Positions 5,315-22,997 of a stretch of DNA of 64,000 nucleotides are shown piece after piece. Below the pieces are notes generated by a model. The model had not been told where the DNA came from and made no database searches. It saw only the letters and a list, made by a program, of their open reading frames with translations. The stretch lies in the NCBI GenBank assembly GCA_032595675.1, contig JAVQMD010000002.1:186001-250000 (forward strand), in the 5' to 3' direction. Each line of letters starts with the position of its first letter. Within the stretch, counting starts at the first letter, position 1. Origin of the DNA: Candidatus Electrothrix rattekaaiensis. Lineage in GTDB: Bacteria; Desulfobacterota; Desulfobulbia; Desulfobulbales; Desulfobulbaceae. Both the position numbers and the translations under genes were made by a program.

Positions 5315-5349
5315 TTTCTTGTCTTTTAGCTCAAGATATCGATGACATA

Positions 5350-6238: not shown

Positions 6239-6877
6239 TCAGGCCCCGGCCCTGAAGTAGCGGTTGCTTATATCTTGCAACCTGCGGATTGAAACATTAA
6301 GGTCAGATATTTGCAGTTTCATCTCTTCCAACTTTTTTTTACAGGTCATTCGCTGATTGGGATCAGACATCCGTGCTGCCTTCTTATGTCCTTCAGCAAC
6401 AACGTACCGTAGCCTGTTACACTCATTTTGTGCTGCTCTCAACTCCTCCTGAACTGCCCTTCGGCGATCTATATTTTTTCTGATATCTCGTTCGTACTGG
6501 TCAACCTGACCTCTCAATTGGTAATTGTACTTGGCAATGCCAGCATGCTGTTGCTGGAGGGTGTAGGCTAAGTCCTCCCTGTAATTACTTTGTCGATCCA
6601 TTTGACCGATTTGATTTGCTTGCGAGTCGCCTACAATGTATCCTAAAAGACCTCCGCCAGCTCCAAAGCCAGCGGCACAGGCCGCTCTATTATCCTTACA
6701 TGCGGCAGCACCTCCAACAGCACCAATCAAACCACCAATCCCTGCACCTTCCGCACGTATTCTATCTCCTTCCGGCATATTTGCGCAAGAAGAGAGAAAA
6801 GCACCTGCCATCAGCAACACAATAGTGTTGCGTAAATGTAAAACGTTCCTCAACGACACCCTATTAGATAAATTCAT
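6239..6877 (-). CDS. Glycine-zipper lipoprotein with C-terminal helical region
   Basis: Last gene of the 12-gene minus-strand block. The N-terminus has a lipoprotein signal with lipobox LSSC at residues 28-31. A Gly/Ala-rich stretch at about 43-85 (GAGIGGLIGAVGGAAA and GFGAGGGLLGYIVGD) is a glycine-zipper, a membrane-associating helix hairpin seen in envelope proteins. The rest to 212 is predicted helical and heptad-like, with Cys at about 153 and 179. The start ATG at 6877 has GGAG 10 bases upstream and overlaps the end of the preceding gene by 14 bases, indicating translational coupling. Probably an envelope anchor of the system. Confidence 0.85.
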   Translation of the reverse strand: MNLSNRVSLRNVLHLRNTIVLLMAGAFLSSCANMPEGDRIRAEGAGIGGLIGAVGGAAACKDNRAACAAGFGAGGGLLGYIVGDSQANQIGQMDRQSNYREDLAYTLQQQHAGIAKYNYQLRGQVDQYERDIRKNIDRRRAVQEELRAAQNECNRLRYVVAEGHKKAARMSDPNQRMTCKKKLEEMKLQISDLNVSIRRLQDISNRYFRAGA

Positions 6878-7310
6878 TTCGCGCGTTCTCCTTGTCTAAT
6901 TTTGCTTTTTGCTTTTTCTTTTTCTCCAATTCTTTTTTCTTCTTCTCTATTTTCAGCTCCAATTCTTTCTTCACCTTGAGCAGCTCTTCTTCGCGTTTCT
7001 TGATCTGACCGCTTTCCGCATACAATTGATTGACCTCGTGCTGTATTTCTTGAAATTCCTTTTCAAGCTGTTTAATTTCTCCTTTTATACTATCTATTTG
7101 TTTTTTCAGTTCGTTCCGCTTCGTTTCTAACTCCTTTTTTTCTTTCTCCTGATTTTCAAGTTCTCTTTGTGCTACCTTCACAGCCTCTTTGCTTCTTACC
7201 TCTCTTTCGGTTTCTCTTGTCAAAGCAGTGTAATATGTGCAACCTGATAATGTCATCGCTGCAAGAAGCGACCAACTTGTAGGTAGCAATATTCTTTTGA
7301 TAATACGCAT
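6864..7310 (-). CDS. Coiled-coil lipoprotein
   Basis: 148-residue lipoprotein: signal peptide with lipobox LSGC at residues 21-24, then an almost uninterrupted Lys/Glu-rich coiled coil from about 30 to 140. Length of the predicted rod is about 110 residues. No catalytic domain. AAGGAG precedes the ATG. It follows the FGE-domain gene by 20 bases and overlaps the glycine-zipper lipoprotein gene. By position and architecture it could span the periplasm and contact the coiled coils of the two upstream proteins; this is inference. Confidence 0.85.
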   Translation of the reverse strand: MRIIKRILLPTSWSLLAAMTLSGCTYYTALTRETEREVRSKEAVKVAQRELENQEKEKKELETKRNELKKQIDSIKGEIKQLEKEFQEIQHEVNQLYAESGQIKKREEELLKVKKELELKIEKKKKELEKKKKQKAKLDKENARNEFI

Positions 7311-7330
7311 TGTTCTTCTCCTTTTCCTTA

Positions 7331-9562
7331 TTATAGAAACTCTTTTTGATCTATGAAGGTATCAATAAATTCGTCTGGAAATCGAGACCCGCCAGCACGT
7401 ACCCGCTGAACATGACGTTCAATAAGATCAAGCGATTTACGTTCGAGAGGAGAAAGAAGTTGCTGGCCGTCTTCTATTCTGCATTCCTCAGTAAAAAGAT
7501 TTTCTCTTTCTCCCTTTTGCAGCCAAGCAGCTACTTCCTTTTTAACCTCTGGAAATAAGTCTGGCCGAGTCTTTTCAGCTATATTCACTACCAACTTCCA
7601 GTAGTCATGAAGTAGCTGACAGGCTTGGGAATACGCCCTTGCCGCATTCTCCTCTGAATAATATTCTCCTGTTTTATCAAGATAAGTATAACGCCGCCTA
7701 GTGAGTTCCGCATAGGCGTTATAGGCATTGGTGTATGCCAGACGCATCAAGGCTTCCAAATATCTCTTTTCAGCTATCTTCGTAAAGTTGGCATTTTCTG
7801 CAATTTTATCTTCACGATCAGCCTGTTTTCGCCTAAGATCCTCAATCGCCTGGTTTTTCTTCTCTAATTCCTGATAAACTTCATCAAGACTATTCTTTAC
7901 GACAAAGGCACGTTGTTGTACCTTTTCTTCCGACAGCTTCAGGCCAGCCCGTTCGGCGGCGAGCTTTTTGTTTTCCTTTTTTAGTTGCTTGATATTATTT
8001 TTATATTGCTCCAACTGTTCCGTGGAAGGTGCAGCAGCAATTTGCTGTTGAAGCTCTCTTACTCGTTGTCTCAGCTTCTTGGTCTTATCCTCATAGGCAA
8101 CATGTAGAGAAAGTTGATCTGAACCGGTATCCTTTGCAATCTCCCTTAATCTGCTTGATGTTTTTTGTTCAGCCTGCAAATCTTCCTCAGTCTTCCTGAG
8201 TTTCTTTTGTAATTTATCTATTGCATCAGAATTCGGTCTTGATGAGAGTTGTTTCAGCAAATCAGCAACCTGTGCTTCCAGTTGTTCCTGACGGTGGCGA
8301 AGATCCAATTGATCCTGTTCTTTTTCCGCAAGTGCCGCTCCATCTTTATTCCGTAATCCCTTTAGCCTCGAAATTTCAAATTCTTTTTGCTTTATTTTTG
8401 CTCTAAGGCTGTTCAGTTCATTCTTAGAGTATTCTCTGGTATTTTTTTCTGCCAAGGCCGCAGGCGAGATTCCAACAAGGCTAGGTTCTGGTGACTCCAG
8501 AGAATCTATGTAATGCTGACACTCGTTATCTAAGACATCAGGAGGTGCTCCGCTTGCGCTTATTGAACTGCTCAATGCAAGCCGAAAACCCGTTCTGTCG
8601 GAAGATATAAGCTTGCCTCTCGCATCATGCGAAACAAATTCAGTTCGGCAAGATACGTCAAATATCTCCGGTGAGTCTCTGAAGCTGTTTCCACGGATGA
8701 CAAACTGGCCCAGACGGCCATGTACGTATTGAGGACCGAACAGACTGATAGTAAGCTCCTCCACATTGCCCAGCATATCCCGCAGTCCTATCGGGTTTGC
8801 AAGCTCGTTGCTGCCGCATTCCCTTGGTGTGCCGCCTGCATTCTTGCTGTGCCATTCGTACTTCCCGAGTTCTTCAATATAAGGCTGACGGCGGTCAAAA
8901 CGGTCAGGATCTTCTTCAGATACGTTAATCCCTCCTCGTGCAGCAAAAGCCCATTCAGCTTCTGTAGGGAGCCGACAAAAGGCGTATGACTGACCGAGTT
9001 TTGGGAGTCTGTTTTTTTGTTGCTGTAGCATCCATGTGTTTAATGCCTCAATAAAGCGGTAACCTTGAGCGATTGTTATGTTATTTTGCGGAAGTTTTTC
9101 CTGACCGGCATCCAATCTCGCAGCAGGATTTTTTCCCTCCTGTTCATCCATCCAGCGCATAACCCTGTTCCATTGACCGCGAGAAACCTCTGTTTCTCCC
9201 AGATAATACAGCCAATCCGGTTGTCCGTTTCGCCTACCGATAAAAGCACCGGCAAGGTCAAGCTTTACCTGCTGCTGTTTATAGGCGTGCTTGGATCGGT
9301 CGCGTGAACCGAGCGTAAATTCGCGCGAAGCAAACAGATCGGGAAAATGGTTATTTTTATCTTTTTTAATTCCCAGATAAACCGCCTTAAAATGCATATC
9401 AGGGCCGTCATAGGGCAGTTTGATGGTCACGGTTTCCGGTGCATCTTGGGCTGCAAGGGGATTTGAGCAGAGCAGGAGCAGGAGAGCTGTTCCGAGCAGA
9501 GATCGGGTGGAATGAAGAAAAAATGATGTGAAGCGATGTTTGATTTTCTTTCCTGAAGTCAT
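7331..9562 (-). CDS. Exported FGE-sulfatase (SUMF1-like) domain protein with long coiled coil and paralogous C-terminal domain
   Basis: Starting at the ATG at 9562, the 743-residue protein has a signal peptide (h-region SLLGTALLLLLCSNPLAA). An FGE-sulfatase/formylglycine-type domain follows at about 75-330, recognisable from YYLGETEVSRGQW, FCRLPTEAEWAFAARGG, GLRDMLGNVEE and VIRGNSFRD. Such domains often act as binding modules rather than enzymes outside sulfatase maturation. A coiled coil covers about 380-595. The final 146 residues (from EKRYLEALMRLA) are clearly homologous to the C-terminus of the next upstream gene product. The frame is open to a TTG at 9610 that overlaps the upstream stop (TTGA), but that start would give an unusually long n-region. 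Confidence 0.88.
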   Translation of the reverse strand: MTSGKKIKHRFTSFFLHSTRSLLGTALLLLLCSNPLAAQDAPETVTIKLPYDGPDMHFKAVYLGIKKDKNNHFPDLFASREFTLGSRDRSKHAYKQQQVKLDLAGAFIGRRNGQPDWLYYLGETEVSRGQWNRVMRWMDEQEGKNPAARLDAGQEKLPQNNITIAQGYRFIEALNTWMLQQQKNRLPKLGQSYAFCRLPTEAEWAFAARGGINVSEEDPDRFDRRQPYIEELGKYEWHSKNAGGTPRECGSNELANPIGLRDMLGNVEELTISLFGPQYVHGRLGQFVIRGNSFRDSPEIFDVSCRTEFVSHDARGKLISSDRTGFRLALSSSISASGAPPDVLDNECQHYIDSLESPEPSLVGISPAALAEKNTREYSKNELNSLRAKIKQKEFEISRLKGLRNKDGAALAEKEQDQLDLRHRQEQLEAQVADLLKQLSSRPNSDAIDKLQKKLRKTEEDLQAEQKTSSRLREIAKDTGSDQLSLHVAYEDKTKKLRQRVRELQQQIAAAPSTEQLEQYKNNIKQLKKENKKLAAERAGLKLSEEKVQQRAFVVKNSLDEVYQELEKKNQAIEDLRRKQADREDKIAENANFTKIAEKRYLEALMRLAYTNAYNAYAELTRRRYTYLDKTGEYYSEENAARAYSQACQLLHDYWKLVVNIAEKTRPDLFPEVKKEVAAWLQKGERENLFTEECRIEDGQQLLSPLERKSLDLIERHVQRVRAGGSRFPDEFIDTFIDQKEFL

Positions 9563-9606
9563 AGTATCTTGCTCTTTAATATTATTCATAAATATATTTT
9601 CTGGGT

Positions 9607-10452
9607 TCAATTTTTGTTTTCTCCGCTATCGGATGCTTGAGACTCAAGTTGCGCTATAAAAGTGTCAATAAGATCAGCTGGAAACTGTGAGTTACCGGCA
9701 CGTACTTGGGCAACGTGACCCTCAATAAGGTCAAGCGAATTACGTCGAATAGGGGAAAAAAATAGCTGTCCGTTTTCTGTCCTGCATTCCTCGGGGCAAA
9801 GATCTTTCTCTTCGCCCTCTTTTAGCCAAGAAGCTACTTTTTCTTTAACCTCTGGAAAAAGATCCTCCTGAGTCTCACTATCTATTTCAACAACTATCTG
9901 CCAGTAATCATGAAGTAAATGACAGGCTCGGGAATGCGCCATTTGTTTTTTCTCGTCCGAGGCATATTTTCCAGCTGAATAAATCTCCTCCTTCTTGACA
10001 AGGTATACATAGGCACTATAGGCATTGGCACTGGCAAGCCGCATTAACTTCTCAAGGTAGTGTTTTTCCAATTCGAGACGTTCATTTTTAAGCAGATCAT
10101 TTTGTTTTTCAAACTCTATACGATCTTTCAGAAGGTTCTCTTTTTCATCTTTTAACAGGTCGTTTTCATAAGATATCCTTTTTTGAATTTTTTTATTTTC
10201 TTCTATCTTTCTTTCATTCTCTTCTATCTTGTAGGAGTTTATATCATAAAGAATTTTAAATGTATCAAGGCATAAATGAATTATAACTGGAGCAGTAATT
10301 ATACCTACAATGCTATATTTCATAATTATGCGAATCCATGATCTCTTAAAATATTTTTCCTCAGCTTCCATCCTTTCTGCTTCAGCATAATTTTTTTTGA
10401 TTTCTGATTGAACCCTTGCATATTCAATTGCTCTCGCTCTTGCTCTCGACAT
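9607..10452 (-). CDS. Membrane-anchored coiled-coil protein sharing a C-terminal domain with its neighbour
   Basis: 281 residues. A charged N-terminal helix (residues 1-38, RARARAIEYARV), one membrane segment at about 42-62 (IMKYSIVGIITAPVIIHLCL), a coiled coil at about 75-130 and a C-terminal domain of about 140 residues. That domain begins EKHYLEKLMRLASANAY and ends FPADLIDTFIAQ; it matches the C-terminus of the FGE protein at roughly half of positions, with conserved LLHDYW, DLFPEV, EECR, SLDLIE and RAG motifs. I do not recognise it as a named family. GGAG precedes the ATG by 6 bases. Orientation is probably N-in, C-out, so both copies of the domain would lie in the periplasm. Confidence 0.85.
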   Translation of the reverse strand: MSRARARAIEYARVQSEIKKNYAEAERMEAEEKYFKRSWIRIIMKYSIVGIITAPVIIHLCLDTFKILYDINSYKIEENERKIEENKKIQKRISYENDLLKDEKENLLKDRIEFEKQNDLLKNERLELEKHYLEKLMRLASANAYSAYVYLVKKEEIYSAGKYASDEKKQMAHSRACHLLHDYWQIVVEIDSETQEDLFPEVKEKVASWLKEGEEKDLCPEECRTENGQLFFSPIRRNSLDLIEGHVAQVRAGNSQFPADLIDTFIAQLESQASDSGENKN

Positions 10453-10494
10453 TTTTTCTCCTAACTGGGTAACAATAACGTTTCTTCCTTCATC

Positions 10495-12333
10495 CTATTC
10501 ACGAATATATTCCCCTGCTTCAATGCGTGTTACAGCAATGGCGGCGATGAATGAAGCCAGAGAAGCGGTTCCATAAAGACCGGCAATAAGGTACATGACA
10601 TGTTTCCTGTCCAGGCGGGTGAGCGAATCGGCAGCACCGATCACGTTTTTAAAAAGCGCATCCGTCTGGAAACTGAAAATTCCATAAGCGATGAATGCGC
10701 TTGCAAGAGCCGCGCTGACAAGAACGAGACTTTTCAAAAACGGGAACAGCACCAGCGAGACAGGATGCAGTCCGTAGAGTTCCAAATATGCTATATCTTT
10801 CCGCTTACGTTGAATCCCGGCATAGACGTTGGCAAGAATGGCAAAGAAACCGGAAACGCCGGAAACCGCAAGAATGAGCAGATACAGTTTTTTCATATAG
10901 CCTGCCAATTGCCGAATATTACGAACCTCCGCAACTCTGGAAACCGGTTCCTGCAGGGCCTCGCTGGATCGCTTTTCTCCTTCGGCGCGGATAAATTCCA
11001 CCAGCTTTTCCAGGTCATCAATGGATTTCGCATAGGCGCGAAAAAAACGTGTTCCCTGCTCAACCGGTCTGAATTCTCCGGCCTGCGGATCATACATTGC
11101 TTCCTGACGGCGGGCGGCATTCATTTTTCCGGCAAAATCAGGATCAATTGCTATAGAACCCTGGGGGACGCTTTCCGAGGGATGAACTCGCACCGGAATG
11201 ACTATTTCTTCTCCTTGAGCTGTTGTTGAAAACGTCATCTCCGCCTTGGGGTAGGGGAAAAAAATCTTGTCATCCTGTGATATCCAGACTTGCTGCACAG
11301 CATCAGTTGCATCAGGCGGGGCGGCGGTGTTTTCTTTCGGAAGAAGCGAAGAAAGAAACAACGATATGCTTTTCCCGTCAGATCGCAAAGTCACCTTGAA
11401 CTCATCAATATAAGGAAGAGTTTTAACCTGATATCCCATCTCGTGGTGCCGGTTGGTCAGCGAGGTAAAATTCTGTTCAAGCACCCGGCTGTTCACCGGT
11501 TGCCAGAGCCGAGCCTGTTGTTCGGCGGCATAACCCCAAGGAGATAACGCATCATTAAAACGCTGAGGCAGTTGACTGAACCCGATGCCGCGCCCTATCA
11601 TGCTTCGGTATTCCTCATCCGAAGGGACTTTTTCCAGCAGAGTGACGATGCCGTCATATTCCGGGGTAAGCGTCGTCCCGCCTCCGGGAAGATTGAGATC
11701 CGGGATGGCCCCGCCCCTGCGCCATTGATGGAGTTGTTTGAACAGATGAGCATCCAGCCATATTTTGGCATCCTGACTGGCCTTGGCAGGTAATACTCCG
11801 GAAACCTGCATATGCACAGGAATGCGTTCTTCGTAACCGGTAGAGCGGATCAGGGTCAGGGTGATACGATCACCTTGCTGTTTTCTTAGAGCTTTTGCAA
11901 GCGGAGTTGAGAGGACAAGAGATTGCGTTCTGTTCGTAAGAGTGATCTTGTTTTCCTTCAGGAGAGGATCGGCGTTGCTCGTGGGCAGGACATTGACCGG
12001 ATCATCCATTCCCTCTACATCCAGGAGCAGAAACGCGGTGGGCGACTCGATAAGAGCGGCGGTCTGCTCGCGTAACGATTTAAGCCAGGAATCATCAAGA
12101 GAGGTCTCCCATTTCGGCATAACAAGACGGCTGACAGGGTCTTTTTGCAGCTCATCAAGCATGTTGCCGATAATGCCGCCCTGAAGACCGAGCAGGATAA
12201 ACAAGGGGGCAAACACTGCCCCCAGGGCAAGCACCATGCAGAGCGAGAGTATCCATTCAAAACGCAGATCAGTAAAAACTAGCCAGATTATATGCAGAAA
12301 ATCAAGGCCGACAGACTGCTTTTCTGTTTTCAT
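10495..12333 (-). CDS. ABC transporter permease, MacB/FtsX-like
   Basis: 612-residue inner-membrane subunit. One membrane helix near the N-terminus (about 27-50), a large periplasmic domain (about 60-475), and a three-helix C-terminal FtsX-type bundle at about 485-510, 535-560 and 580-605. This is the topology of the type VII ABC (MacB/LolCE/FtsX) class, which moves force or lipids/lipoproteins across the envelope rather than importing solutes. The matching ATPase is two genes upstream, separated by a nuclease gene. The start ATG at 12333 has GGAG at a good distance and lies 2 bases after the upstream stop. Confidence 0.88.
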   Translation of the reverse strand: MKTEKQSVGLDFLHIIWLVFTDLRFEWILSLCMVLALGAVFAPLFILLGLQGGIIGNMLDELQKDPVSRLVMPKWETSLDDSWLKSLREQTAALIESPTAFLLLDVEGMDDPVNVLPTSNADPLLKENKITLTNRTQSLVLSTPLAKALRKQQGDRITLTLIRSTGYEERIPVHMQVSGVLPAKASQDAKIWLDAHLFKQLHQWRRGGAIPDLNLPGGGTTLTPEYDGIVTLLEKVPSDEEYRSMIGRGIGFSQLPQRFNDALSPWGYAAEQQARLWQPVNSRVLEQNFTSLTNRHHEMGYQVKTLPYIDEFKVTLRSDGKSISLFLSSLLPKENTAAPPDATDAVQQVWISQDDKIFFPYPKAEMTFSTTAQGEEIVIPVRVHPSESVPQGSIAIDPDFAGKMNAARRQEAMYDPQAGEFRPVEQGTRFFRAYAKSIDDLEKLVEFIRAEGEKRSSEALQEPVSRVAEVRNIRQLAGYMKKLYLLILAVSGVSGFFAILANVYAGIQRKRKDIAYLELYGLHPVSLVLFPFLKSLVLVSAALASAFIAYGIFSFQTDALFKNVIGAADSLTRLDRKHVMYLIAGLYGTASLASFIAAIAVTRIEAGEYIRE

Positions 12334-12335
12334 CT

Positions 12336-13304
12336 TTACTCCGGTCGGGACAGGATATGCGCAAACGCCTGCACACTTTTACATCCCACAGCCTTGCGGA
12401 AGAGAAATTCGATCAGCTCCTGATCACTGATTTGTCTGATGTTTTTGGTTAACTCCGGCGGCAGAACACCGAATTTTTCCAACAGCAGATCCAGCAGCAT
12501 CTTCCGACCGGTCTCCAAAGTGCCGAGGGTCCTTCCTTCCTGAATACCGATATTTTTTCCTTCCTCTCTTCCCTCCTCAATACCGATATTTTTTCCTTCT
12601 TTGATACCATGTTCTCTTGCCACATCAATAACATCTATCATCTTGAGCACCTCCAGATTTTCCTCGAAAAATTTCTTGTCAACCATCTTGTTGGACATAA
12701 CCATAGCTGCGGCGAGCAGTCTGGCTGATATTTTTTCCGCGCGAAAGAGCGCAATTTCAAAACAGAGCATCTCCTCCACCATTGCGCTCCGGCGTTCTCC
12801 GGTTTCTTTTCCGTAGAGCGGCAGAAAGACCAGTTCCAGCCAGTTTCGGAACTTCCCTTGTTCAACCGCTGAACGGATTTCTTCCAGACGCCTGCGACCG
12901 TCCCGTTCGCTGAAGTCGATAATATTCGGCGCATAGCGACCGCTGCATGTAATCAGGGCATCGCCTTTGAAGGAAACCTCGCCCGAGGCCAAGATAATAT
13001 CGGTCAGGCCAGCACCCCATTGCTTTGCCCCGGTGAAATGATAGGCCGCAAAGCGGTACATGTCCGCTTTTTTCAGATTCCGCTGCTCCTCAATGTGCCA
13101 GTACGCCCCGTTCTCGTCCCGCAGCATGAGATCCACCCGACCGGTGCGGACGGCAATGTCCGCAGGTTCGAAGCCGAAGGCATCCTCAATCCGACCACTC
13201 TGCACCCCGATTACTTCGAGTGTTTCACCTTTCAGGGCCTCGCCCATGAGTTTGACGATCAGATCGTAGTTCTGTGCGTAGTCTGTTCCGTTTCTGCTTT
13301 CCAT
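12336..13304 (-). CDS. Rpn/YhgA-like PD-(D/E)XK nuclease-family protein
   Basis: 322 residues. The N-terminal half carries D58 in GRVDLMLRDENG and E72-E-Q74 in YWHIEEQRN, the D...E-x-Q core of the Rpn/DUF4351-type PD-(D/E)XK proteins related to recombination-promoting nucleases. The C-terminal part has the family's usual low-complexity tandem (GKNIGIEEGREE, then GKNIGIQEGR) followed by a helical tail ending in QISDQELIEFLF. It lies between the ABC permease and ABC ATPase genes of the same strand with gaps of 2 and 39 bases, an odd place for such a gene. Members of this family are mobile and multi-copy, so it may be a passenger that inserted without breaking the operon. Confidence 0.82.
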   Translation of the reverse strand: MESRNGTDYAQNYDLIVKLMGEALKGETLEVIGVQSGRIEDAFGFEPADIAVRTGRVDLMLRDENGAYWHIEEQRNLKKADMYRFAAYHFTGAKQWGAGLTDIILASGEVSFKGDALITCSGRYAPNIIDFSERDGRRRLEEIRSAVEQGKFRNWLELVFLPLYGKETGERRSAMVEEMLCFEIALFRAEKISARLLAAAMVMSNKMVDKKFFEENLEVLKMIDVIDVAREHGIKEGKNIGIEEGREEGKNIGIQEGRTLGTLETGRKMLLDLLLEKFGVLPPELTKNIRQISDQELIEFLFRKAVGCKSVQAFAHILSRPE

Positions 13305-13343
13305 TGCGTATTCTCTTAGTAATGCATAGATTTTTCACTTGTT

Positions 13344-14069: not shown

Positions 14070-14087
14070 ATTCCCGCTCCTCTCCGG

Positions 14088-16397
14088 TTACGGAAGTTGA
14101 TTCAGTTCAACACCGACAACACGATCCTTGTCCCGAGCACCGGCACTCAGTTTTTTCCAGACATTTTCATCTCCCCTTTTGCGCTTGAGATCCTCATAAT
14201 GCAGGAGTTTATTGTTCATTGCACGAATGAAGCGTTGTACCCGGTCCGGATTTTCAAAATCACTCCGGTCAGCCGCCATGATGTCGCTCTTATACGGCAG
14301 TTCGCTGATCCCCAAAGGCACTGCAAAGGCATCCCGGAAATTAACCGCTGTCGGGTTCACCATAGTGAACTTTGTGTTTTGAGAAACTAACTCAAAAAAG
14401 TCCAGGGTTGTTCCTCCGTCGCCGCGCAGGGCTTTTTCGCCGATTCCTTTCAATTCCCGGACCCTGGCGGTCAGTTCTTCCAGCTCGGTTTCGGTCAGCA
14501 GGATCATGGGGGTTAATGCCTCACGATCCGGGTTGGTCAGCACCTTGTCGCAGACCCAGCCGGTTATATCCTGGTCAGGAAGGGTGTTGTCGGCGTACAT
14601 CAAGGTTGCCTGCTGGAAGATGAGTTCTTTCAGCGAACCGGGTTCAGCCGCAGGCAATGGTTGACCGGTACGTTTAAAGTCAAGGAACTCATCTATAGAT
14701 TCGAGAGATTCTTGAAATTCATCCGCTATGAGTTGACGGAACTGAGCTGCACCGGCATCTATACTGCGTAAATAGTTCTGCTTCTGCGCTGTTCCTTTGA
14801 TTCCTTCGGAAACAGAAGAAAGGTCGGCATACTGCTTTCGTGACACGTTGTCCCGGTTCCTTGAAATTGATGAGTTATTGAGATGAAAGGCAAAAAGACG
14901 AATTTTTCGGGTCAGGGCTTTATTCCGCAGGATTGTTGTATTCAGATTTCCATCCCTGCCCGGAGCATCTCCCGCCAGAAAGATAATCTTGATAGCTTCC
15001 TGCCGCCATTGCCCGCTGTCCAAGGCGGTATTAATTCCTTCAAAAACAGCTTCGGGAATATCGTCCCCATGTACGGGAGTTTCCCGTGCCGTAACTCCTG
15101 CCAGAGCGTGAACAAACTCCACGGCGGGCAGGGTACGGGAGGTGAATTCTTTTGTTATGTAAGAAAATTGCGGATCTTTATCCTGATATCCGATAAAACC
15201 GAAGCGCAGCCCGTCGTCCGTATGTGCTCCGGCGAATTCCTTAGTAGCTGCCAGCACGTTTTCCAGATACGGTCTCATGGAATGCGTGGTGTCCATGACA
15301 AAGATAATGTCAATGGCCACGGAATTGTTCCCACTCTCGGATGCACCGTTTCTGGTTCGCGCTGCAACCTCCAGCAGCCGGGCGAACTTTCCGTCAATAA
15401 ACAAATCGTTTTTACCGCCGCTGGCATGAAAATCCAGAACCGGATACATAATCATCCGTTCCTGCCCTTCCCCGACATGGGGTTCCACAGCTACAACACC
15501 GCTCGCACCTCCTTGTCCGCTTTCCAGTTGTTCCCGAATACTCCTGAGTTCCTGCTCTCGAACATCCGCTGCCTCCTGCATCAGGTCAAGTACCGGCTGA
15601 GGGGGATCGAAAAAAAGTGAGGGTTCACGATTATAGGAATTGGTAAACCGCATCACCACGGCCCGCCGCCAGGGGATGACCTGGTTTTCAGCAATCCAGC
15701 CGATGGGTTTCGGCGACCAGTTGCGCGGCTTGATCTTGGGAACATACTCCTCGGTCACCTGATACCAGCGTTCTCCGGCGCTGTCTTCCGTACTGCCAAG
15801 AACACCGAAGGCTTCGTACTGCTGCACATTGTCTCGTACCACGGAGCTGTCGGCATCCGGGCGTTCGTGCAGACGAGCATGACGCAGGGCAAGAACGCGA
15901 GAAACAGCTGTTTTGCGGGGATCAGGCGGATAGCCGTCCCACCAAGTTGTTTCCGATGCGGAAGTTCTTACCTTACGCAGGATTCCTTGAACATAGCGGT
16001 CCGCGTATCGTTTTGCTCGTTCCGCACCGACTTCTTCCGGACTGATGCCTAATTCATTCGCCATCAGCCTGTGCAGTTCCTGACGGTCCCGGTTTTCCTC
16101 TTCGGCAAGCCTCCGTGCTTCGGCAGAGCAGGAGGTATTGATTTTCAGAAAACCGTCAAGCTGCTCACCAAGGCAATGTTCCGGGCTTTGCAGTAACTTT
16201 TCAAGCCGGGGTTGTCTTGCCTGCATGGTTCTCAGGAGCACCTCGTAGCTCTGTTCGCTCCATGCCTGTCCGGCAACAAGAAACGAGAGAAGGAAAAGAA
16301 TGAGTAGGGGCAGGCCCCTGTGCCTGCCCGGTATGCAAGGGCGAACACGGGGATTCGCCCCGACATTACCTGCTTTCTGTTTATGCTGAGTTGTCAT
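14088..16397 (-). CDS. Exported von Willebrand factor A protein with SH3-like domain
   Basis: 769 residues as annotated from 16397. A signal peptide ends near residue 48 (LPLLILFLLSFLVAGQAWS). An SH3-like segment covers about 165-250 (ALRHARLHERPDADSSVV to GWIAENQVIPWRRA). A vWA domain covers about 360-560 with the MIDAS motif D369-T-T-H-S373 and later FLAGDAPGRDG. The C-terminal 200 residues are unassigned. The first 30 residues, upstream of the hydrophobic core, are encoded by a copy of the genome's dispersed palindromic repeat (16304-16361), so the n-region was acquired from a repeat or the real start is elsewhere; the ATG at 16397 overlaps the upstream stop as ATGA. vWA proteins bind partners through metal, consistent with a scaffold role. 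Confidence 0.88.
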   Translation of the reverse strand: MTTQHKQKAGNVGANPRVRPCIPGRHRGLPLLILFLLSFLVAGQAWSEQSYEVLLRTMQARQPRLEKLLQSPEHCLGEQLDGFLKINTSCSAEARRLAEEENRDRQELHRLMANELGISPEEVGAERAKRYADRYVQGILRKVRTSASETTWWDGYPPDPRKTAVSRVLALRHARLHERPDADSSVVRDNVQQYEAFGVLGSTEDSAGERWYQVTEEYVPKIKPRNWSPKPIGWIAENQVIPWRRAVVMRFTNSYNREPSLFFDPPQPVLDLMQEAADVREQELRSIREQLESGQGGASGVVAVEPHVGEGQERMIMYPVLDFHASGGKNDLFIDGKFARLLEVAARTRNGASESGNNSVAIDIIFVMDTTHSMRPYLENVLAATKEFAGAHTDDGLRFGFIGYQDKDPQFSYITKEFTSRTLPAVEFVHALAGVTARETPVHGDDIPEAVFEGINTALDSGQWRQEAIKIIFLAGDAPGRDGNLNTTILRNKALTRKIRLFAFHLNNSSISRNRDNVSRKQYADLSSVSEGIKGTAQKQNYLRSIDAGAAQFRQLIADEFQESLESIDEFLDFKRTGQPLPAAEPGSLKELIFQQATLMYADNTLPDQDITGWVCDKVLTNPDREALTPMILLTETELEELTARVRELKGIGEKALRGDGGTTLDFFELVSQNTKFTMVNPTAVNFRDAFAVPLGISELPYKSDIMAADRSDFENPDRVQRFIRAMNNKLLHYEDLKRKRGDENVWKKLSAGARDKDRVVGVELNQLP
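16304..16361 (-). repeat. Dispersed GC-rich palindromic repeat inside vWA coding region
   Basis: The + strand here reads G-T-A-GGGG-CAGGCCCCTGTGCCTGCCC, then a second unit with GGGCGAACACGGGGATTCGCCCC. The same units recur outside genes at 24683-24716, 32885-33008, 37993-38024 (first unit) and 51064-51140. Here they are translated as the n-region of the vWA signal peptide (GNVGANPRVRPCIPGRHRG). Confidence 0.8.
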
Positions 16398-16816
16398 GGC
16401 TCTGTCCGCAGTATTTTTGAGGAAGTTTCAAGTTGCTGATACACCCACCAAGGGTCTCGCGATTCAGGAGGCGGGGTAACGTTTACCGGAGGGTCTGACG
16501 TAATATCTGGCGATTTTGCATCATCCGGGGAATCAGGAGTTTTCGTGAAAAACCAGATAACGAGAGTAACTGCAAAGATTCCTACGGCCACCGGCAGGAT
16601 TATCTTCCACGGTGGGCGTGAAGACGGAGGAAGAGGGTGCAGTTCACAGCCGCAGTCCTTCCCGGACAGTGTTTTACCGGGACATTTCAGACCACCGCTT
16701 CCATCCATATTCGGTATGGCTTCCTCGGCAGGAATTTTTCGATTTTCCCGAGCAAAGACACAGGGATCTTCCCCGAATTCATTGCCGCAACTATAAAAAG
16801 AAGGTATGTCAGACAT
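16394..16816 (-). CDS. Small single-span membrane protein with N-terminal Cys cluster
   Basis: About 140 residues. The N-terminal 60 contain six Cys in a spread pattern (C-x8-C, then C-P-G-K, then C-G-C), which may form a zinc-ribbon-like fold; no family is recognised. A Pro-rich linker leads to one membrane helix (about residues 69-90, IILPVAVGIFAVTLVIWFF), then a Pro/Asp-rich tail. The start is set at the ATG at 16816, which has AGAGG seven bases upstream; a TTG at 16831 overlapping the tubulin stop is the alternative. The stop overlaps the vWA start by four bases. Probably links cytosolic and periplasmic partners. Confidence 0.82.
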   Translation of the reverse strand: MSDIPSFYSCGNEFGEDPCVFARENRKIPAEEAIPNMDGSGGLKCPGKTLSGKDCGCELHPLPPSSRPPWKIILPVAVGIFAVTLVIWFFTKTPDSPDDAKSPDITSDPPVNVTPPPESRDPWWVYQQLETSSKILRTEP

Positions 16817-16827
16817 ATCATTACCTC

Positions 16828-19800
16828 TCAAACAAGTTCTTCAGCAAGCCGACGACTCAGTTCCGTCGCTTCTTCCACGCTGTCTTTAAAGAGGATAAAG
16901 GTTTCATCCTCCCGCTTCTTTTGAGAAAGAAAGAAGGCTTGCGCCCTGAAAGAGTTCAGCCGGTTTTCCAGTTCACTGAGATCTTTCTTTTCTTTTATTT
17001 TCTCGCCAACCAGTCCCTCAATCGCATCCAGACTGTTTTCGTTGAACTGGGTTAAATAGGCCGCATGGAGCAGGGTTATTTCAAGAGAGATTTCTTCATC
17101 CTTGCTCTTATACGCCGCTGCTTTTTCGCGGAGTTCCGCACTGACCGACATGCCGCTTTCCACCATGTCGCCGCCGGTGCTGTATGCCTCTTGAGTGCCG
17201 AAAACCACCTGCTCGTTATTTTCCGGTATCCACATCAGATCCAGAGCCGTTGCCAGCAGAACAGGAGCCAATCGCTCTTTCAGCACCTCAACCCGTCCCT
17301 CTTTCATCAGGCTGGGCAGGCGCGGACGATGGCTTTCGGTGTGGACTTCAAAATACGCCCGCCGCGCATCTTTTTCTTTAAGCTGATCCAAACGCCTGAG
17401 ATATTTTTCCTGTAAACCATGGGCGGTCTGGGTAAAGCGGGCCGGGAAGAAAAAGGCGACAGAGAGGATGCTCACCTCACTGGAGTTACGGTCTTCCGGG
17501 ATATCCTGACAATAGGTTTCCACGACTCCGCCGCCTTTCAGGTCGCCTGTAATTGACTCGATAGTTTTACGTAAATCCAAGGAAAACTGTTGCGGTACAG
17601 CCTTGCAGTTGGGGATAAAGACGCAGCGTCGAAGCACCGGAGCCCTGACATCGCTGCCCAAATCCATCCCTTCTTCATTGGCTTCAAACGAGACCATAGG
17701 CATGGCCTTGCTCATAATATCGCGAAGCCAGTGGCGCATTTCATCGTTTACCTGCCCGCCGTAGTCGTTGTACAGTTTTTGAATGATATTCTGTCCGAAA
17801 ATACCGTGGAAATCCTTGTCTTCCTCCCGAATTCTCCGATGTGCTTCCCCGGCACTCCGATCCGCCACCCGACGCAGCTCATCAACCAGCGGGCCGCCGA
17901 CCTGCTCGGAATTGTCCACAGGCATTATTTCTGTATATGCAGTAAACTCGGCCCGATTTTGTCGCAGTTGGCCCAGGGCTTTCGCCGTGGCGAGCGCATG
18001 GTGATCCTGAACCGATTTATTGCACTCAAAGCGTTCGTGAATCATTGCGTTAACATATTTAACATCAACGAGATAATCAACATCTTCGTTGCTGCTTTCC
18101 TCCTCGTTTTCCACGATGCGGGAACGCATTTCTGCTTCAAAATTTTTCGCCACCAGCAGCATTCTGGATTTAAAAAGCACGACCTGCTGGTTGAGCGACT
18201 TGAGTTCGGATGTCAGGGCGGTACAGAATTCCTGCCCGTATTGGGCGGCCAAGGCTACGGTGCGCCAATAATAATAACGGGTGGAGGCTTCCCTGTACTG
18301 GTTGAACAGCCGGTTGACTTTATTGCCGAATATGTTGGTTAATCTGCCGCATGCCAGGAATTCTCTTTTTGTTTCCTCCCTAAGATGATCAGCCTCCTCT
18401 ATCTGTTTTTTCGCTTTTGTGACAATCTCACCGAAATGCTCGCTGTCTTGTGCAACGCGCTCAAGGAGAATATCCAGGGCATCAGGGAGATGATAAAGGA
18501 CATATTTTTGGTCACCGCGCTCCATGCCGTCCAGCAGATCAATCTCTACAATGGCGCGAAGATCCCGCGCACGAGATCGTAAGGTCATGGGATCTCGACG
18601 ATTGGCAAAGTAATTTTCCGTTCCTCCGCCGGTTCCGACAGCACGGAAGCCGTTTTCCCAGAACGCCTCCGCCCGTCTGTCAAAATCAGTAAGCCATTTT
18701 TGCCGTGCGTCAAAAGCATCACCGAGCTGCTCTTTCACTCGGGTTTCCTGCCTCAGAAGCTCTTCCCGCCACTCAATTTCATAGGTCGGGTGTGTTGCCT
18801 GCCCGAGCGCCTCCTCGACCCGGTCAAGAGAGAGATGTTCTCTGGTGACTCGCCAGTTTTCACGACGGGTATCAACAAAATCATTGGCGGAAAAACTGCG
18901 TGCATTAGGGAGAAAGCAGCCGTCCCAATTATTATAAAGCATCTTCAGAACCACCTGCCTCCCAAAGGAGTAGGCCAATTTTTCCCGGATTTCCTTTTCC
19001 GGAATAGCTATCCGCTGCACACCGTAGCTGATAAAGGCGGTGGAACGGTTGCCGCCGTCAACATCCGCAGGATACTGATCCCTATCCTCCATAGTCAGGG
19101 CCTGACGAAGCTCATTGGGCATATCCCCCATCTGACGGACTGCCAGTTGAAAGATAAATTCCGCAGCATTTTCTATCTGTTGTTCCAAAGCAACGCTGGT
19201 GCCTCTTTCTGTTGTTTCCGAAATCAGCGCAACCGACCTGAAGGTATTTTTCACCTGCATTCGTTCCGGTCGGGCCGGTCCCATAATATCCCAGGGCTGG
19301 TAATTACCGAGACGAAAGGCATTCAGCTCGGTCAATGCTCCGTACTGATTTGCATAAAAATTACCGGTATTGGTTGTGCCGACATCCTTAGCCGTGACAA
19401 AACCGTGAATATAGACGTTGAAATCACCGGGCTGATTTTGAAGATATCGCTGAAGCTGGGCCACGATATCCAGCACGGTACCGCTGCCGGTTCCTGCCGC
19501 CAAGGTGCAGGCAATATGGATTTCTCCGCCCACATTGCCCCCCTTTCCGCTCAACTCATTAAGACGGTTTGAGATGGCGGAAATGACATTTTCAATATTT
19601 TTTCCGTTCGCCAGAGCGAGCCGTCCCATACGGCGAATCTGGTTGCAGCCCGCCGGCCCGGAGCAGCCGCGCGTAATATCCCGAACAAACTCTATTTCTT
19701 CTTTGACCCACGGCTCAACACCGGTGTATCTTTGCAGATTATCAAGAATTTTATGTATTCCTGTGGGATTGATAAGCACTTTTTCCCGATCACCCAGGGT

Positions 19801-20058
19801 CAGCGTCTCGCCGAAAACCCGCCATTTTCGGACACGCTCGCCTTGTCCTTCAAGGTCGGCTTCATTAGAATCCATACTCAGGGTGGCGATTTTGGAACTC
19901 ACCAACTGACCGCCCATCTTTTCTTCAAAGGTATAAATTTCAGGAGGAATACCTGTGTTGCCGCATGACCTCCACTCGACATACAGGCTCTTCTTGAGTT
20001 CCCGGACAACTGCGCAGCCTGTACCGCCAAGGCCGATTAAAAGAAAATTTTTTGACAT
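16828..20058 (-). CDS. Large tubulin/FtsZ-like GTPase (Tubulin_2 family)
   Basis: 1,076 residues from the ATG at 20058, which has AGGTGA close upstream; a GTG three codons earlier is possible. The N-terminal domain has GLGGTGCAVV (residues 9-18) and the tubulin signature-like nucleotide loop AAGTGSGT (187-194), preceded by ACTL and followed by a helix, as in FtsZ/tubulin. This marks the large tubulin-like proteins sometimes found beside vWA genes. About 700 further residues, mostly helical, follow and have no name I recognise. Comparative genomics has suggested membrane remodelling for such families. It has no signal peptide or membrane helix, so it acts in the cytosol, presumably reaching the envelope through the neighbouring membrane proteins. 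Confidence 0.9.
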   Translation of the reverse strand: MSKNFLLIGLGGTGCAVVRELKKSLYVEWRSCGNTGIPPEIYTFEEKMGGQLVSSKIATLSMDSNEADLEGQGERVRKWRVFGETLTLGDREKVLINPTGIHKILDNLQRYTGVEPWVKEEIEFVRDITRGCSGPAGCNQIRRMGRLALANGKNIENVISAISNRLNELSGKGGNVGGEIHIACTLAAGTGSGTVLDIVAQLQRYLQNQPGDFNVYIHGFVTAKDVGTTNTGNFYANQYGALTELNAFRLGNYQPWDIMGPARPERMQVKNTFRSVALISETTERGTSVALEQQIENAAEFIFQLAVRQMGDMPNELRQALTMEDRDQYPADVDGGNRSTAFISYGVQRIAIPEKEIREKLAYSFGRQVVLKMLYNNWDGCFLPNARSFSANDFVDTRRENWRVTREHLSLDRVEEALGQATHPTYEIEWREELLRQETRVKEQLGDAFDARQKWLTDFDRRAEAFWENGFRAVGTGGGTENYFANRRDPMTLRSRARDLRAIVEIDLLDGMERGDQKYVLYHLPDALDILLERVAQDSEHFGEIVTKAKKQIEEADHLREETKREFLACGRLTNIFGNKVNRLFNQYREASTRYYYWRTVALAAQYGQEFCTALTSELKSLNQQVVLFKSRMLLVAKNFEAEMRSRIVENEEESSNEDVDYLVDVKYVNAMIHERFECNKSVQDHHALATAKALGQLRQNRAEFTAYTEIMPVDNSEQVGGPLVDELRRVADRSAGEAHRRIREEDKDFHGIFGQNIIQKLYNDYGGQVNDEMRHWLRDIMSKAMPMVSFEANEEGMDLGSDVRAPVLRRCVFIPNCKAVPQQFSLDLRKTIESITGDLKGGGVVETYCQDIPEDRNSSEVSILSVAFFFPARFTQTAHGLQEKYLRRLDQLKEKDARRAYFEVHTESHRPRLPSLMKEGRVEVLKERLAPVLLATALDLMWIPENNEQVVFGTQEAYSTGGDMVESGMSVSAELREKAAAYKSKDEEISLEITLLHAAYLTQFNENSLDAIEGLVGEKIKEKKDLSELENRLNSFRAQAFFLSQKKREDETFILFKDSVEEATELSRRLAEELV

Positions 20059-20085
20059 ATCAATCACCTGAAAAATTTAAAAACA

Positions 20086-20904
20086 TCATCGAACTTTAAT
20101 ATCAGCAAGAGCTGAACGTATCAACAAAGAAAATATAATGCCCTGTATGAGAAGAAAAACCAGGACAAGTACAGAACGGGAAATCAGCATGATCCGTGGA
20201 ATTTGGCCCACCATGCTTTGCCGCATTACGTTTTTTGCCAGCCGGACAGCTTCCATAACCGGATAGGTTTTCTCGCCAGCTCCTGTTGAGTTGGAAAAAA
20301 ACTGTTCGATATCCTTATAAAGAGCTTTTGCAGTCTCTTCAGCGTAAACCCGGAGAATTTTGCTCAACAAAGGATGATTCACGGTAAAATGTTTTACCGC
20401 CTCTTTAGCATATATCTGCGCAGCCACCAGTTTGGATTTCTCATGACGGGTGGGGATCATAACCTCCCGGCCTGATTCAGGATGCGGCCTGCCGGTGAAA
20501 TCTTCCAGCTGGTTTCCTGCCGCATCACGCAGCTCGTATACAGCTTCGTAGGCTTTTTGAAAAGTTTCGTCGCTCCATTTTGTATCAACTTCAAGAGCGG
20601 CTTCCCAGCTTGTCACGATGCGTTCCGCAACATCACCCGTAAAACGAAAGGCGAAGAAGAGCAGGGTACAGCAGAAGGTCACCGCAGCGGCACTTCCGCA
20701 AAAGAAATAATGCTGCGGACGGGAAGAATATCGGCGGTTGAAGTTCAGGGCCACATAATGCGTCAGCCACCAGAAAAGTCCGGCAAGGACGATTCCGGCA
20801 GCGCAGGCGATGAAAAATTCATGCCGGGCACTGCTCCATAACTGGAGGACGAGACTGCCGAGGAGAAGGAAAAGGTCTTTGAGGAGAGAGATTGTTTGGT
20901 TCAT
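20086..20904 (-). CDS. Membrane protein, tubulin-operon component
   Basis: 272 residues with membrane helices at about 29-50 (FFIACAAGIVLAGLFWWL), 68-88 and 240-265 (ISRSVLVLVFLLIQGIIFSLL). Between the second and third lies a helical soluble segment of about 150 residues, on the periplasmic side if the N-terminus is cytosolic. No family recognised. It begins 23 bases after the TPR gene and ends 27 bases before the tubulin start. It may be the membrane receptor for the GTPase or part of the ABC complex; this is inference from position. Confidence 0.82.
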   Translation of the reverse strand: MNQTISLLKDLFLLLGSLVLQLWSSARHEFFIACAAGIVLAGLFWWLTHYVALNFNRRYSSRPQHYFFCGSAAAVTFCCTLLFFAFRFTGDVAERIVTSWEAALEVDTKWSDETFQKAYEAVYELRDAAGNQLEDFTGRPHPESGREVMIPTRHEKSKLVAAQIYAKEAVKHFTVNHPLLSKILRVYAEETAKALYKDIEQFFSNSTGAGEKTYPVMEAVRLAKNVMRQSMVGQIPRIMLISRSVLVLVFLLIQGIIFSLLIRSALADIKVR

Positions 20905-20927
20905 TTTCTGATTACTTCTGATAATTA

Positions 20928-22775
20928 TTATGGTTTATCATTCTGTTTTGATGATTTCTTTTTATTGCGACGTATTATAAGAAGGGCACCCATGATTGAA
21001 ATCATACCCCCTGAAAAGAGCCAATCAAGATTACGTAACAAATATTCGCAAATAGAATAGGAAATGTTTTTACAGGTATTACGTATTGCCTTTATTGATG
21101 TTTTTAGCTCAGACCAAATTTTCTTGACAGTCTCGATAAGGTGCGTTTTATCTGCTTCAACGAGAGGAGAAATCTGATCTCGCACTTCCTCGCTGGGGGG
21201 ATTTGTTATAATCGGAGTACCAGGGGGAACTTGTGCAAGCTGTTCTTTTCTTTTTGCGGCTATTTCCCCTAAAAATTGAGATGTTATATCAATTCCTTTC
21301 TGGTTTTGTAGCCGCTTGTAAAGGCATCTCGCCTCTTTGAAGGTGTTCTCTGCGTCTTCCAGGTCACCTGATTTCTTTTCCAACCAGCCGATACCACAAA
21401 GAACATGTGCTTCGCCGAGCTGATTTTCTAAGTCAGAATAAAGTGCCTTGGCTTCCTTGTATGTGTTCAGGGATAAGATTCGATCTACCTCGGTTTTGCC
21501 CAACATAATCTGTAGATGTCCTCGTTCTGTAAGCGCATTAGCCAATCCGAGCAGATTGTTGAGAGCACGATAAATATTTTCTGCCTGAACACACTTCTTC
21601 AAAGCCGAACGGAGCTTGCCTCGTATGGCTTCCAACCGTCCTAAGCCAAGGATGACATTGGCTTGACCGAGCTTGTCCCCAAGCTCTTCGTAATATTTTT
21701 TTGCGCTCAGGTAGTTCGTTTCGGCTGTTTCGTGATATCTTTTTGCATCTATTTCGTTTTTTTGAATTCTTTCATGATTGCCTCGCAGAGTTGCTAAGTC
21801 TCCCTGTCCAGCAAGGACATTTGCTATACCCAAAGTATCCTTAATGTCTTTGTAGATCTCCAATGCAATCACGTAGTGATTTGAAGAGTTGTCCCAGTGA
21901 TATTGAGCGGTAAGTTTTCTCTCCAAATGCCCCATCTCTGCCAAGGCGTTTGCCCGACCGAGATCATCCTGAATAGTTTTATAATGGCCTGCTGCCTTCT
22001 TATAAAATGCCAATGCTTGAGGAATATCATTTCGTACTCTCGCCAAATCTCCTCGTCCTATGAAAACATTCGCCAACCCAAGTACATTATTTTTCTTGCT
22101 GTAAAGAGATGTTGCTTTATCATATGCTTCCTCCGACTTTTCATAGTTGCCTAAAGAGCATTCCAAGTCTCCGAGAGCACAAAAAACATTAGCTTCTCCT
22201 CTTTGACCTTCTTGCGCCTCATAGAGATCTTGGGCAGACTCATAAAAACTCCGGGCTTCTTTGGGGCCAACAGTATTTCTTTTTATATGTCCGAGAGCAA
22301 GTTGAACAGCCGCTCGACCTTGGCGACTGTTTGCACGTTCATAATAATGGTTAGCCTTCTTGTAAGCCTCTTCGGCTTTATCATATCGATTGCTTTTTCT
22401 TTCTATCTCTCCGCGACCGTACCAAACTCTACCGAGTCCAAGAAAGTTATCTTTTTGGTCATAACGGGAAATCGCTTCGCTGTAATCGGTTTCGGCCTTA
22501 CTGAATTTTCTGGTTACATTTTCCAAGTCACCGAGGATACAATATATGTTGGCTTCGTTCTGTAAGTTTCCTTGATTGAGAAAAGAGTTAAGCCTCTCTC
22601 TGTATTCCCTTTTCAGGGTGTCGCTGTTGCCGAGCAGGGAGTAATTGTCAGGTGTTGCAGTGAAAATGATTGATTCTGGAACGGATTGGGCTGGCTCTTG
22701 TGCTGAGACAATCGTCGTATGAATACTGAGAACAGTCAGAAGAAGGAAAGTATTTATATACCCGGAGAGTGTCAT
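20928..22775 (-). CDS. Exported TPR-repeat protein with C-terminal membrane anchor
   Basis: First gene of the 12-gene block; 615 residues. A signal peptide (1-25, cleavage after VSA) is followed by about 10 TPR-like repeats of roughly 40 residues between 55 and 500, with the recurring pattern G-x-A-x-V-x-x-G-x-G-x-L-E and Y-x-x-A, similar to kinesin-light-chain or LGN-type TPRs. A C-terminal membrane helix (about 585-605, GGMISIMGALLIIRR) ends in Lys-rich residues that would face the cytosol. The repeats thus sit in the periplasm and bind partners. The 150 bases upstream of the ATG at 22775 should hold the operon promoter, but I cannot point to clear -35/-10 boxes. Confidence 0.87.
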   Translation of the reverse strand: MTLSGYINTFLLLTVLSIHTTIVSAQEPAQSVPESIIFTATPDNYSLLGNSDTLKREYRERLNSFLNQGNLQNEANIYCILGDLENVTRKFSKAETDYSEAISRYDQKDNFLGLGRVWYGRGEIERKSNRYDKAEEAYKKANHYYERANSRQGRAAVQLALGHIKRNTVGPKEARSFYESAQDLYEAQEGQRGEANVFCALGDLECSLGNYEKSEEAYDKATSLYSKKNNVLGLANVFIGRGDLARVRNDIPQALAFYKKAAGHYKTIQDDLGRANALAEMGHLERKLTAQYHWDNSSNHYVIALEIYKDIKDTLGIANVLAGQGDLATLRGNHERIQKNEIDAKRYHETAETNYLSAKKYYEELGDKLGQANVILGLGRLEAIRGKLRSALKKCVQAENIYRALNNLLGLANALTERGHLQIMLGKTEVDRILSLNTYKEAKALYSDLENQLGEAHVLCGIGWLEKKSGDLEDAENTFKEARCLYKRLQNQKGIDITSQFLGEIAAKRKEQLAQVPPGTPIITNPPSEEVRDQISPLVEADKTHLIETVKKIWSELKTSIKAIRNTCKNISYSICEYLLRNLDWLFSGGMISIMGALLIIRRNKKKSSKQNDKP

Positions 22776-22943
22776 ATAAATCCAGCCTCAATAAAAATAA
22801 GTGTGTGTTCTCAACAGCGAACGATCTATTGATAACTCTATATTTCCAGCACAGTTCATAGTATGTAACAGGGGAGAGGTCAAGTTTTTTATCTTGCAGG
22901 ATTAAGGGGAATAATGCCTGAATCTAGATCGAAAGAGCATGGC

Positions 22944-22997
22944 AAGCAGCTTTCCGAGGCTTTGGAGCATCTGAACAACCGTCCTGTTTTGCAGTAA
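22944..22997 (+). pseudogene. Carbonic anhydrase 3'-end remnant
   Basis: Eighteen codons K-Q-L-S-E-A-L-E-H-L-N-N-R-P-V-L-Q-stop. They match the last residues of the intact alpha-carbonic anhydrase at 3640-4377 (K-Q-L-A-K-A-L-K-H-P-N-N-R-P...R-P-V-L-Q) with an internal loss of eight codons between two short CCGTCC repeats. No coding sequence precedes it. Confidence 0.75.

Follow-up and report, generated by a model that had tools for sequence, protein, structure and literature searches.

A tubulin-like GTPase beside a type VI secretion-type sensor cassette in an accessory operon of the cable bacterium Candidatus Electrothrix rattekaaiensis

The window analysed here, a stretch of 64,000 nucleotides from contig JAVQMD010000002.1 (positions 186,001 to 250,000; assembly GCA_032595675.1) of Candidatus Electrothrix rattekaaiensis, carries on its minus strand an operon of twelve genes at 6239–22775, designated A to L in order of transcription, in which a tubulin-like GTPase is combined with homologues of the envelope-damage sensor of type VI secretion systems (T6SSs). 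The host is a cable bacterium of the same genus as Ca. Electrothrix gigas, and its assembly of 4.48 Mb is 96% complete. All twelve open reading frames (ORFs) described in the original prediction, which was made from the sequence alone, were present on this strand with short gaps or overlaps; from A to L the intergenic distances are 23, 18, −4, −4, 18, 39, 2, 42, −4, 20 and −14 bases, the largest gap thus being 42 bases, with four overlapping junctions. A promoter and terminator scan of the operon gave counts near the shuffle level (26 vs 20.2 and 26 vs 22.2). Searches covered 395 genomes of the phylum, 8 genomes of the genus and a plasmid collection, the records from outside the phylum being those of plasmids only.

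Gene A (20928..22775; like all twelve, on the minus strand) encodes a TPR protein with a signal-peptide-like N-terminus and a C-terminal hydrophobic segment, and B (20086..20904) a membrane protein with four hydrophobic segments, which matched no Pfam family above cut-off and is 81–82% identical to the copies in the two other genomes with the operon. The ORF of C (16828..20067) has 1079 codons from a GTG, and the ATG at codon 4 gives the predicted tubulin-like protein of 1,076 residues, which matched Tubulin_2 (PF13809, E = 3.8e-41) and contains GLGGTG near its N-terminus. D (16394..16831), likely a membrane adaptor of C, consists of a cysteine-rich N-terminus, one hydrophobic segment and a short tail with a conserved DPWW motif. 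E (14088..16397) has an N-terminal hydrophobic segment and a vWA domain (VWA_4, E = 4.1e-10) with the metal-site motif DTTHS; the SH3-like part once assigned to it found no Pfam support at E ≤ 1, and its N-terminus matched DUF1318 instead. F (13344..14069) is an ABC ATPase (ABC_tran, E = 4.4e-24), and H (10495..12333) is an FtsX-type permease with four hydrophobic segments, the structure prediction of which from two sequences was unusable (pLDDT 36). Between F and H lies G (12336..13304), whose supposed Rpn-type nuclease identity is backed by sub-threshold matches only (DUF4351, E = 0.0013; PADLOC 'putative invertase', E = 0.0038). I (9607..10452) combines one hydrophobic segment at residues 40–58 with a coiled coil, predicted from four sequences as mostly a single long helix (pLDDT 72), and J (7331..9610) combines an FGE-like domain (FGE-sulfatase, E = 4.3e-18) with a coiled coil. 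I and J do share a further domain, as predicted (51% over J 581–757), which occurred in one of the 395 phylum genomes, solely in these two genes. K (6864..7310), with a coiled coil, and the glycine-rich L (6239..6877) were expected to be lipoproteins, and a simple pattern located lipobox-like motifs in both (LSGC and LSSC). The TPR, tubulin-like, vWA, ABC ATPase and FGE assignments of A, C, E, F and J each had a Pfam match.

The cassette genes stand in the order E-F-H-J, with G and I between, and all four are homologous to genes of a sensor module known from other bacteria. Plasmids of Gluconobacter, Cereibacter and Klebsiella carry the order SrfB-SrfC-x-vWA-ABC-permease-SUMF1, some genes being unnamed in the record, and models built from these three loci matched E (2.8e-52), F (1.4e-47), H (5.6e-46) and J (1e-32); no other protein of the window's operon was matched at E ≤ 1 by these models, those of SrfB and SrfC included. 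The complete T6SS locus of Tistrella mobilis plasmid pTM1 (L149) has the order TssH-Fha-TssJ-TssK-TssL-TssM-TagF-PP2C-kinase-vWA-ABC-FtsX-SUMF1-x-VgrG. Electrothrix models matched its vWA protein (2.1e-25), ABC ATPase (1.3e-40), permease (4.6e-32) and SUMF1 protein (7.7e-20), and 20 shuffles of each of 14 proteins gave zero matches. The FtsX-like nature of H, for which Pfam gave a weak match (E = 0.2), is upheld by its likeness to the Tistrella permease, itself above the FtsX cut-off. Because the Tistrella kinase (PF00069, 2.1e-34) and vWA protein are encoded by separate genes, the latter corresponds to the outer half of PpkA, and E would be the counterpart of that half. The C-terminal part of this kinase (residues 397–457; L149:12502-13929) also matched the model of the Sel1-type protein of Srf loci (1.5e-7), a piece common to the gene upstream of vWA in the T6SS and Srf versions.

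H-type genes occurred in 28 of the 395 phylum genomes, the window's own included. We compared 24 further module loci, comprising 17 stretches from 16 of the 27 other H-positive genomes and the plasmid loci L091–L095, L113 and L149. SrfB/SrfC genes adjoined the module in 13, a complete T6SS in one and VgrG/PAAR genes in one (L093, with permease and FGE genes only), and neither kind of neighbour was seen in nine. All four cassette genes were present in 21 of the 24, the exceptions being L093, L100 (a short contig) and L106 (no FGE match), and C was absent from every one, the scan of L149 being that of its 14 annotated proteins. Short N-terminal (DUF1318-type) and vWA-only matches to E in many of 94 genomes were not counted as modules. 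No kinase–vWA fusion turned up in the phylum sample, in which open frames related to E that extend past the vWA domain have 667–810 codons. In trees, F grouped with free-standing modules (94/99, just under the bootstrap mark) and E lay on a long branch, and these placements were not used further. Two loci have ABC ATPase and FtsX permease in one frame (L103:8405-10480, 691 codons; L111:9284-11335, 683 codons), possibly as natural fusions. In Azospirillum brasilense (L094:8021-11356), a free-standing module adjoins a divergent vWA gene (PF00092) and a large ORF, by eye kinase-like though without a Pfam kinase match, which may be a further output.

Among solved structures, the closest relatives of F, which we regard as TagT-like, were PsdA and BceA, then a dipeptide ATPase, LolD and MacB. 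BceAB/PsdAB-type sensing transporters signal to kinases, acting on a histidine kinase; they are not known to have a vWA or FGE partner. These relatives are consistent with a signalling role for F without being proof of it. E had no sequence match in the PDB at E ≤ 0.1, H nothing meaningful there, and J, the TagR-like protein, matched just two FGE-fold chains. Near what we take to be the catalytic-cysteine place of the FGE domain, a location presumed rather than read from an aligned enzyme, J reads SCRTEF in the window and in Ca. E. gigas and AHRTEF in a third Electrothrix genome, G047; the domain may thus be a binding domain, as no cysteine is conserved there across the three. A model of L matched lipoproteins adjoining the module in L096–L101 (6e-20 to 4e-6), and the best matched of these, after the FGE gene in L096, carries the domain of the 17-kDa Rickettsia antigen, to which TagQ has been likened (PMC3608642). 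L may thus be TagQ-like.

The other half of the operon belongs to a family without an explained function. C scored 142 bits against PF13809 (cut-off 27) over residues 9–373, and we take this Pfam family to be the FtsZl1 of Makarova and Koonin. The glycine loop reads AAGTGSG in the three Electrothrix proteins, against the expected GGGTG(S/T)G; of six other aligned tubulin-like proteins, three have AGGTGSG and the other three deviate too. C had no PDB sequence match at E ≤ 1. FtsZl1 was described in 2010, its genes lying with those of vWA, OmpA-type and membrane proteins; the passages of PMC2875224 on the family propose membrane remodelling and give no experimental function, and a reviewer printed there favoured transport or signalling and pointed to a periplasmic ABC component in one genome.

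PF13809 matched in 15 of the 395 phylum genomes, in 14 of them above cut-off. Eighteen other tubulin-like loci, namely 16 stretches from 14 other phylum genomes (one sub-cut-off) and two plasmid loci, had no match to E or H at E < 0.01, several of their contigs being short and possibly ending before a partner gene. Weak matches beside tubulin genes were to L in L057 (4.7e-9), to the TPR protein A in L060 (3.9e-6) and to J (0.0012) and K (6.1e-5) in L070. ABC matches near the tubulin gene in L035, L036, L058, L063 and L066 were left uncounted, being unaccompanied by H or E matches. Six loci were examined ORF by ORF (L055, L056, L059, L035, L065 and L036). In the first four, the tubulin gene is followed by one for a protein with a cysteine-rich N-terminus, one transmembrane segment and a further domain, which is PBP-like plus OmpA in three loci and TPR in one; L055 has a 103-residue ORF between the two genes, and in L056 the tubulin is split into two ORFs. 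L065 and L036 were without such a partner, and L065 has instead a vWA protein upstream (PF00092, 9.3e-14). The window's D shares this layout, its tail being short, the G047 version of D carries a HYDIN-type Ig domain, and the DPWW motif near the C-terminus is common to the three Electrothrix D proteins. Since C–D-like pairs with varying outer domains thus recur in four of the six loci, D is likely a membrane adaptor of C with an exchangeable outer part.

Tubulin gene and sensor cassette were found together in Electrothrix alone, in three of the eight genus genomes. C and H occurred in the same three (for C, 3 of 59 in the family sample), neither occurred alone in any genus genome, and full-length J matches were confined to these three. 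In a scan of the named genome collection that reaches close relatives only, C had a single relative, in Ca. E. gigas (81% identical). The order there (L002) is A-B-C-D-E-F-H-I-J-K-L, with F and H direct neighbours and G lacking, and in G047 it is B-C-D-[stand-alone FGE]-E-F-[368-residue protein]-H-I-J-K-L, in a stretch that matched neither A nor G. The ten genes B, C, D, E, F, H, I, J, K and L, in the same order in all three genomes, thus form the core. The four-base overlap of D and E in the window recurs in Ca. E. gigas. G, present at the F–H junction of the window only and not found in the operon stretches of the other two genomes, and A, present in two of three, had been counted as members of the system, but neither belongs to the core. 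At the same junction as G, G047 has the gene of the 368-residue protein (L006:9870-10976) next to 28 residues left over from the start of H (L006:9757-9840); judged by eye, this protein appears secreted and beta-barrel-like, and it has no Pfam match.

The operon is accessory, and in G047 it was inserted as a unit. In G041, about 300 bases separate the carbonic anhydrase gene from the biotin carboxylase gene that follows it, and in G047 (G047:C1:1695000-1732000, L006 and L007) the distance between this pair is about 19.1 kb; the two genomes are 97.2–98.5% identical over four flanks of 1.8–5.5 kb and 96.1% over a fifth flank of 258 bases. The empty site with both neighbours was also present in G027 and G052. 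A second copy of the last 94 bases of the G047 carbonic anhydrase gene lies at the operon's far end. Compared with the G041 gene over its final 93 bases, this copy has 4 differences and the end of the G047 gene itself has 8, with a background of 18 differences over the preceding 400 bases; small as these numbers are, they suggest insertion rather than loss. In the window, the carbonic anhydrase gene flanks the island at 3640..4377 (plus strand), its 3' end being the repeated sequence, and a 60-bp remnant of that end at 22928..22987 (plus strand; 81.7% identity, E = 8e-11) marks the far edge of the unit. Upstream of A, the window stays similar to Ca. E. gigas up to 22923, just short of this remnant, and the far-edge junction is common to the window and G047 (76% over 147 bases). 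Carbonic anhydrase had no match in the Ca. E. gigas stretch or in G034, a genome placed in the window's genus, and the Ca. E. gigas copy of the operon is thus probably at another site. Inspection by eye of the ORFs in the G047 island revealed no integrase or transposase, no family search having been made. Between the carbonic anhydrase gene and the operon, the window has Uma2-like and PIN-domain-like ORFs, named by eye (4838–5757), and a Uma2-like match also follows the carbonic anhydrase gene in G018 (L030:467-799).

Co-occurrence of tubulin, vWA protein, ABC pair and shared domain across unrelated genomes was the check set by the original prediction, and within the scope of our search it was not seen: none of the 18 other tubulin-like loci had E or H, the H-positive and PF13809-positive phylum genomes (28 and 15 of 395) overlapped in the window's genome only, and the domain common to I and J was seen in that single phylum genome. 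What held of the proposed envelope machine is a co-inherited block of membrane proteins, ABC pair, periplasmic vWA and FGE proteins, lipoproteins and a cytosolic tubulin-like protein, and its sensor half is a known module. According to PMC6657622, Pseudomonas aeruginosa has PA0075 ppkA, PA0074 pppA, PA0073 tagT, PA0072 tagS, PA0071 tagR and PA0070 tagQ, and E-F-H-J-L thus follow the order PA0075–PA0070, pppA apart. The vWA domain of PpkA is extracellular, TagR acts on the C-terminal domain of this kinase (PMC3224232), and outer-membrane damage alone triggers the response through TagQRST-PpkA (PMC11881912). The operon thus shares with the TagQRST-PpkA/PppA system a vWA protein, ABC ATPase, FtsX permease, FGE protein and lipoprotein in like order, the first four being homologous to the split-kinase Tistrella locus. 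It differs in having a tubulin-like GTPase and adaptor in the place of the kinase, the extra proteins I and K, and a private C-terminal domain on I and J. No kinase, PP2C phosphatase or Fha protein was recognised by Pfam among the twelve proteins, and the T6SS sheath (TssC/VipB, PF05943) had no match in the 96% complete genome; in a control of 14 genomes, PF05943 matched in E. coli. The vWA-ABC-FtsX-FGE cassette has the identical order in SrfB-SrfC loci, in which SrfB, SrfC and a Sel1-type gene lie upstream and tubulin is lacking, the plasmid permeases having about 400 residues vs 612 in H. Such srfB/srfC genes with tagQRST/ppkA were reported in 2013 from host-associated deltaproteobacteria, mostly without T6SS machinery (PMC3608642). 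With FtsZl1 operons, the Electrothrix operon shares a tubulin-like protein of more than 1,000 residues and vWA and membrane partners, and it differs in its ABC/FtsX pair and FGE protein, which are not among the partners named in the passages of PMC2875224 on these operons (vWA, kinase, GTPase and OmpA proteins).

Considering these results, we propose, with a probability of about 0.6, that the operon encodes an envelope-damage sensor of the T6SS type in which a tubulin-family GTPase, rather than a kinase, serves as the output. In this scenario, L, probably as a TagQ-like lipoprotein, and J, as a TagR-like periplasmic protein, would sense outer-membrane damage or contact, and F and H, resembling TagT and TagS, together with E would relay the signal at the inner membrane. 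C would be the receiver, tethered by D as its transmembrane adaptor and assisted by B and I. The path from F/H through E to D and C is suggested by the place of the tubulin–adaptor pair, which upstream of the vWA gene is that of the kinase or of SrfB-SrfC. The signal would switch the GTP-dependent assembly or membrane attachment of C, and by analogy with its superfamily, local polymerisation or membrane attachment would be the most likely outcome. Since its relatives are of the PpkA/TagRST type, the ABC pair is more likely a signal transducer than the lipid mover or force generator once envisaged.

Several points weigh against this scenario. The likeness to the P. aeruginosa system was drawn from gene order and descriptions, the sequences compared being those of the Tistrella and plasmid loci. 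Tubulin and sensor are joined in one genus only, and the coupling of C to E, having no independent recurrence, is thus argued from operon structure and co-transfer. As nine of the 24 module loci had no recognised output nearby, the module need not signal to its neighbours. The search for kinases and Fha proteins covered the twelve proteins of the operon. The cysteine-rich region of D is zinc-ribbon-like by eye only, and the L model matched neither the 170-residue protein after SUMF1 in Tistrella nor, at E ≤ 0.01, did L match the glycine-zipper domain of the 17-kDa Rickettsia antigen.

The occurrence of the two halves apart, in 18 tubulin-like loci without E or H and 24 module loci without C, would also be expected if an FtsZl1 operon and a TagRST-type operon had become adjacent by chance on one mobile island as independent units. 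We consider this doubtful, because D and E overlap by four bases in both the window and Ca. E. gigas, the ten-gene order is identical in three genomes, and none of the eight genus genomes has C or H alone. Cable bacteria have an unusual envelope. GTPase polymers might pull or shape the inner membrane through an ABC/vWA scaffold as a structural machine, as the remodelling proposal for FtsZl1 genes with vWA, OmpA-type and membrane partners implies (PMC2875224). This is unlikely, since the block is accessory, being present in three of eight genus genomes with empty sites in G041, G027 and G052, its ABC/FGE part belongs to a sensor family, and the reviewer of that proposal preferred transport or signalling.

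The same patchy, island-borne distribution and the adjoining PIN-domain-like and Uma2-like ORFs would suit a system of defence or competition, in which sensing of phages or attacking cells leads to self-limitation. Among proteins A–J, however, PADLOC matches were to TPR and many ABC-type ATPase models (best mad3, 2.8e-33) and weakly to G, and Pfam recognised no toxin domain in any of the twelve, making this role rather improbable. Least probable is that F and H form a MacB/Lol-type transporter for the export or extraction of a lipid, a lipoprotein or a peptide, in which C would be an accessory; besides PsdA and BceA, the relatives of F include LolD and MacB, and K and L are lipoprotein-like, but no membrane-fusion or TolC-type family occurs among the twelve proteins, and both the gene order and the partner genes match the TagST module.

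What is new about the operon is that a known sensor module is joined to a known, unexplained tubulin family. The full combination had been predicted to be undescribed; its vWA-ABC-FtsX-FGE part is the known PpkA/TagRST-type module, and the ABC/FGE/lipoprotein set is itself not new, but the join is. Among open-licence papers, mostly represented by titles and abstract beginnings, we found none on a tubulin-like protein with a TagQRST-type module. The position of an FtsZl1 tubulin in the slot of the PpkA kinase offers a concrete hypothesis for its switch, namely outer-membrane damage perceived through a TagQRST-type sensor, and D is a testable candidate for the adaptor of this tubulin. Found beside at least three different gene sets, the T6SS sensor cassette is portable, which suggests that a single sensor can be connected to outputs of very different kinds. 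More tentatively, the TagRST/vWA cassette may be a general plug-in receptor of envelope damage with interchangeable cytosolic outputs (a kinase, SrfB-SrfC or a tubulin-like GTPase), which in cable bacteria would gate a polymer of the tubulin family where damage or contact occurs. An insertable envelope system is thus added to those of cable bacteria.

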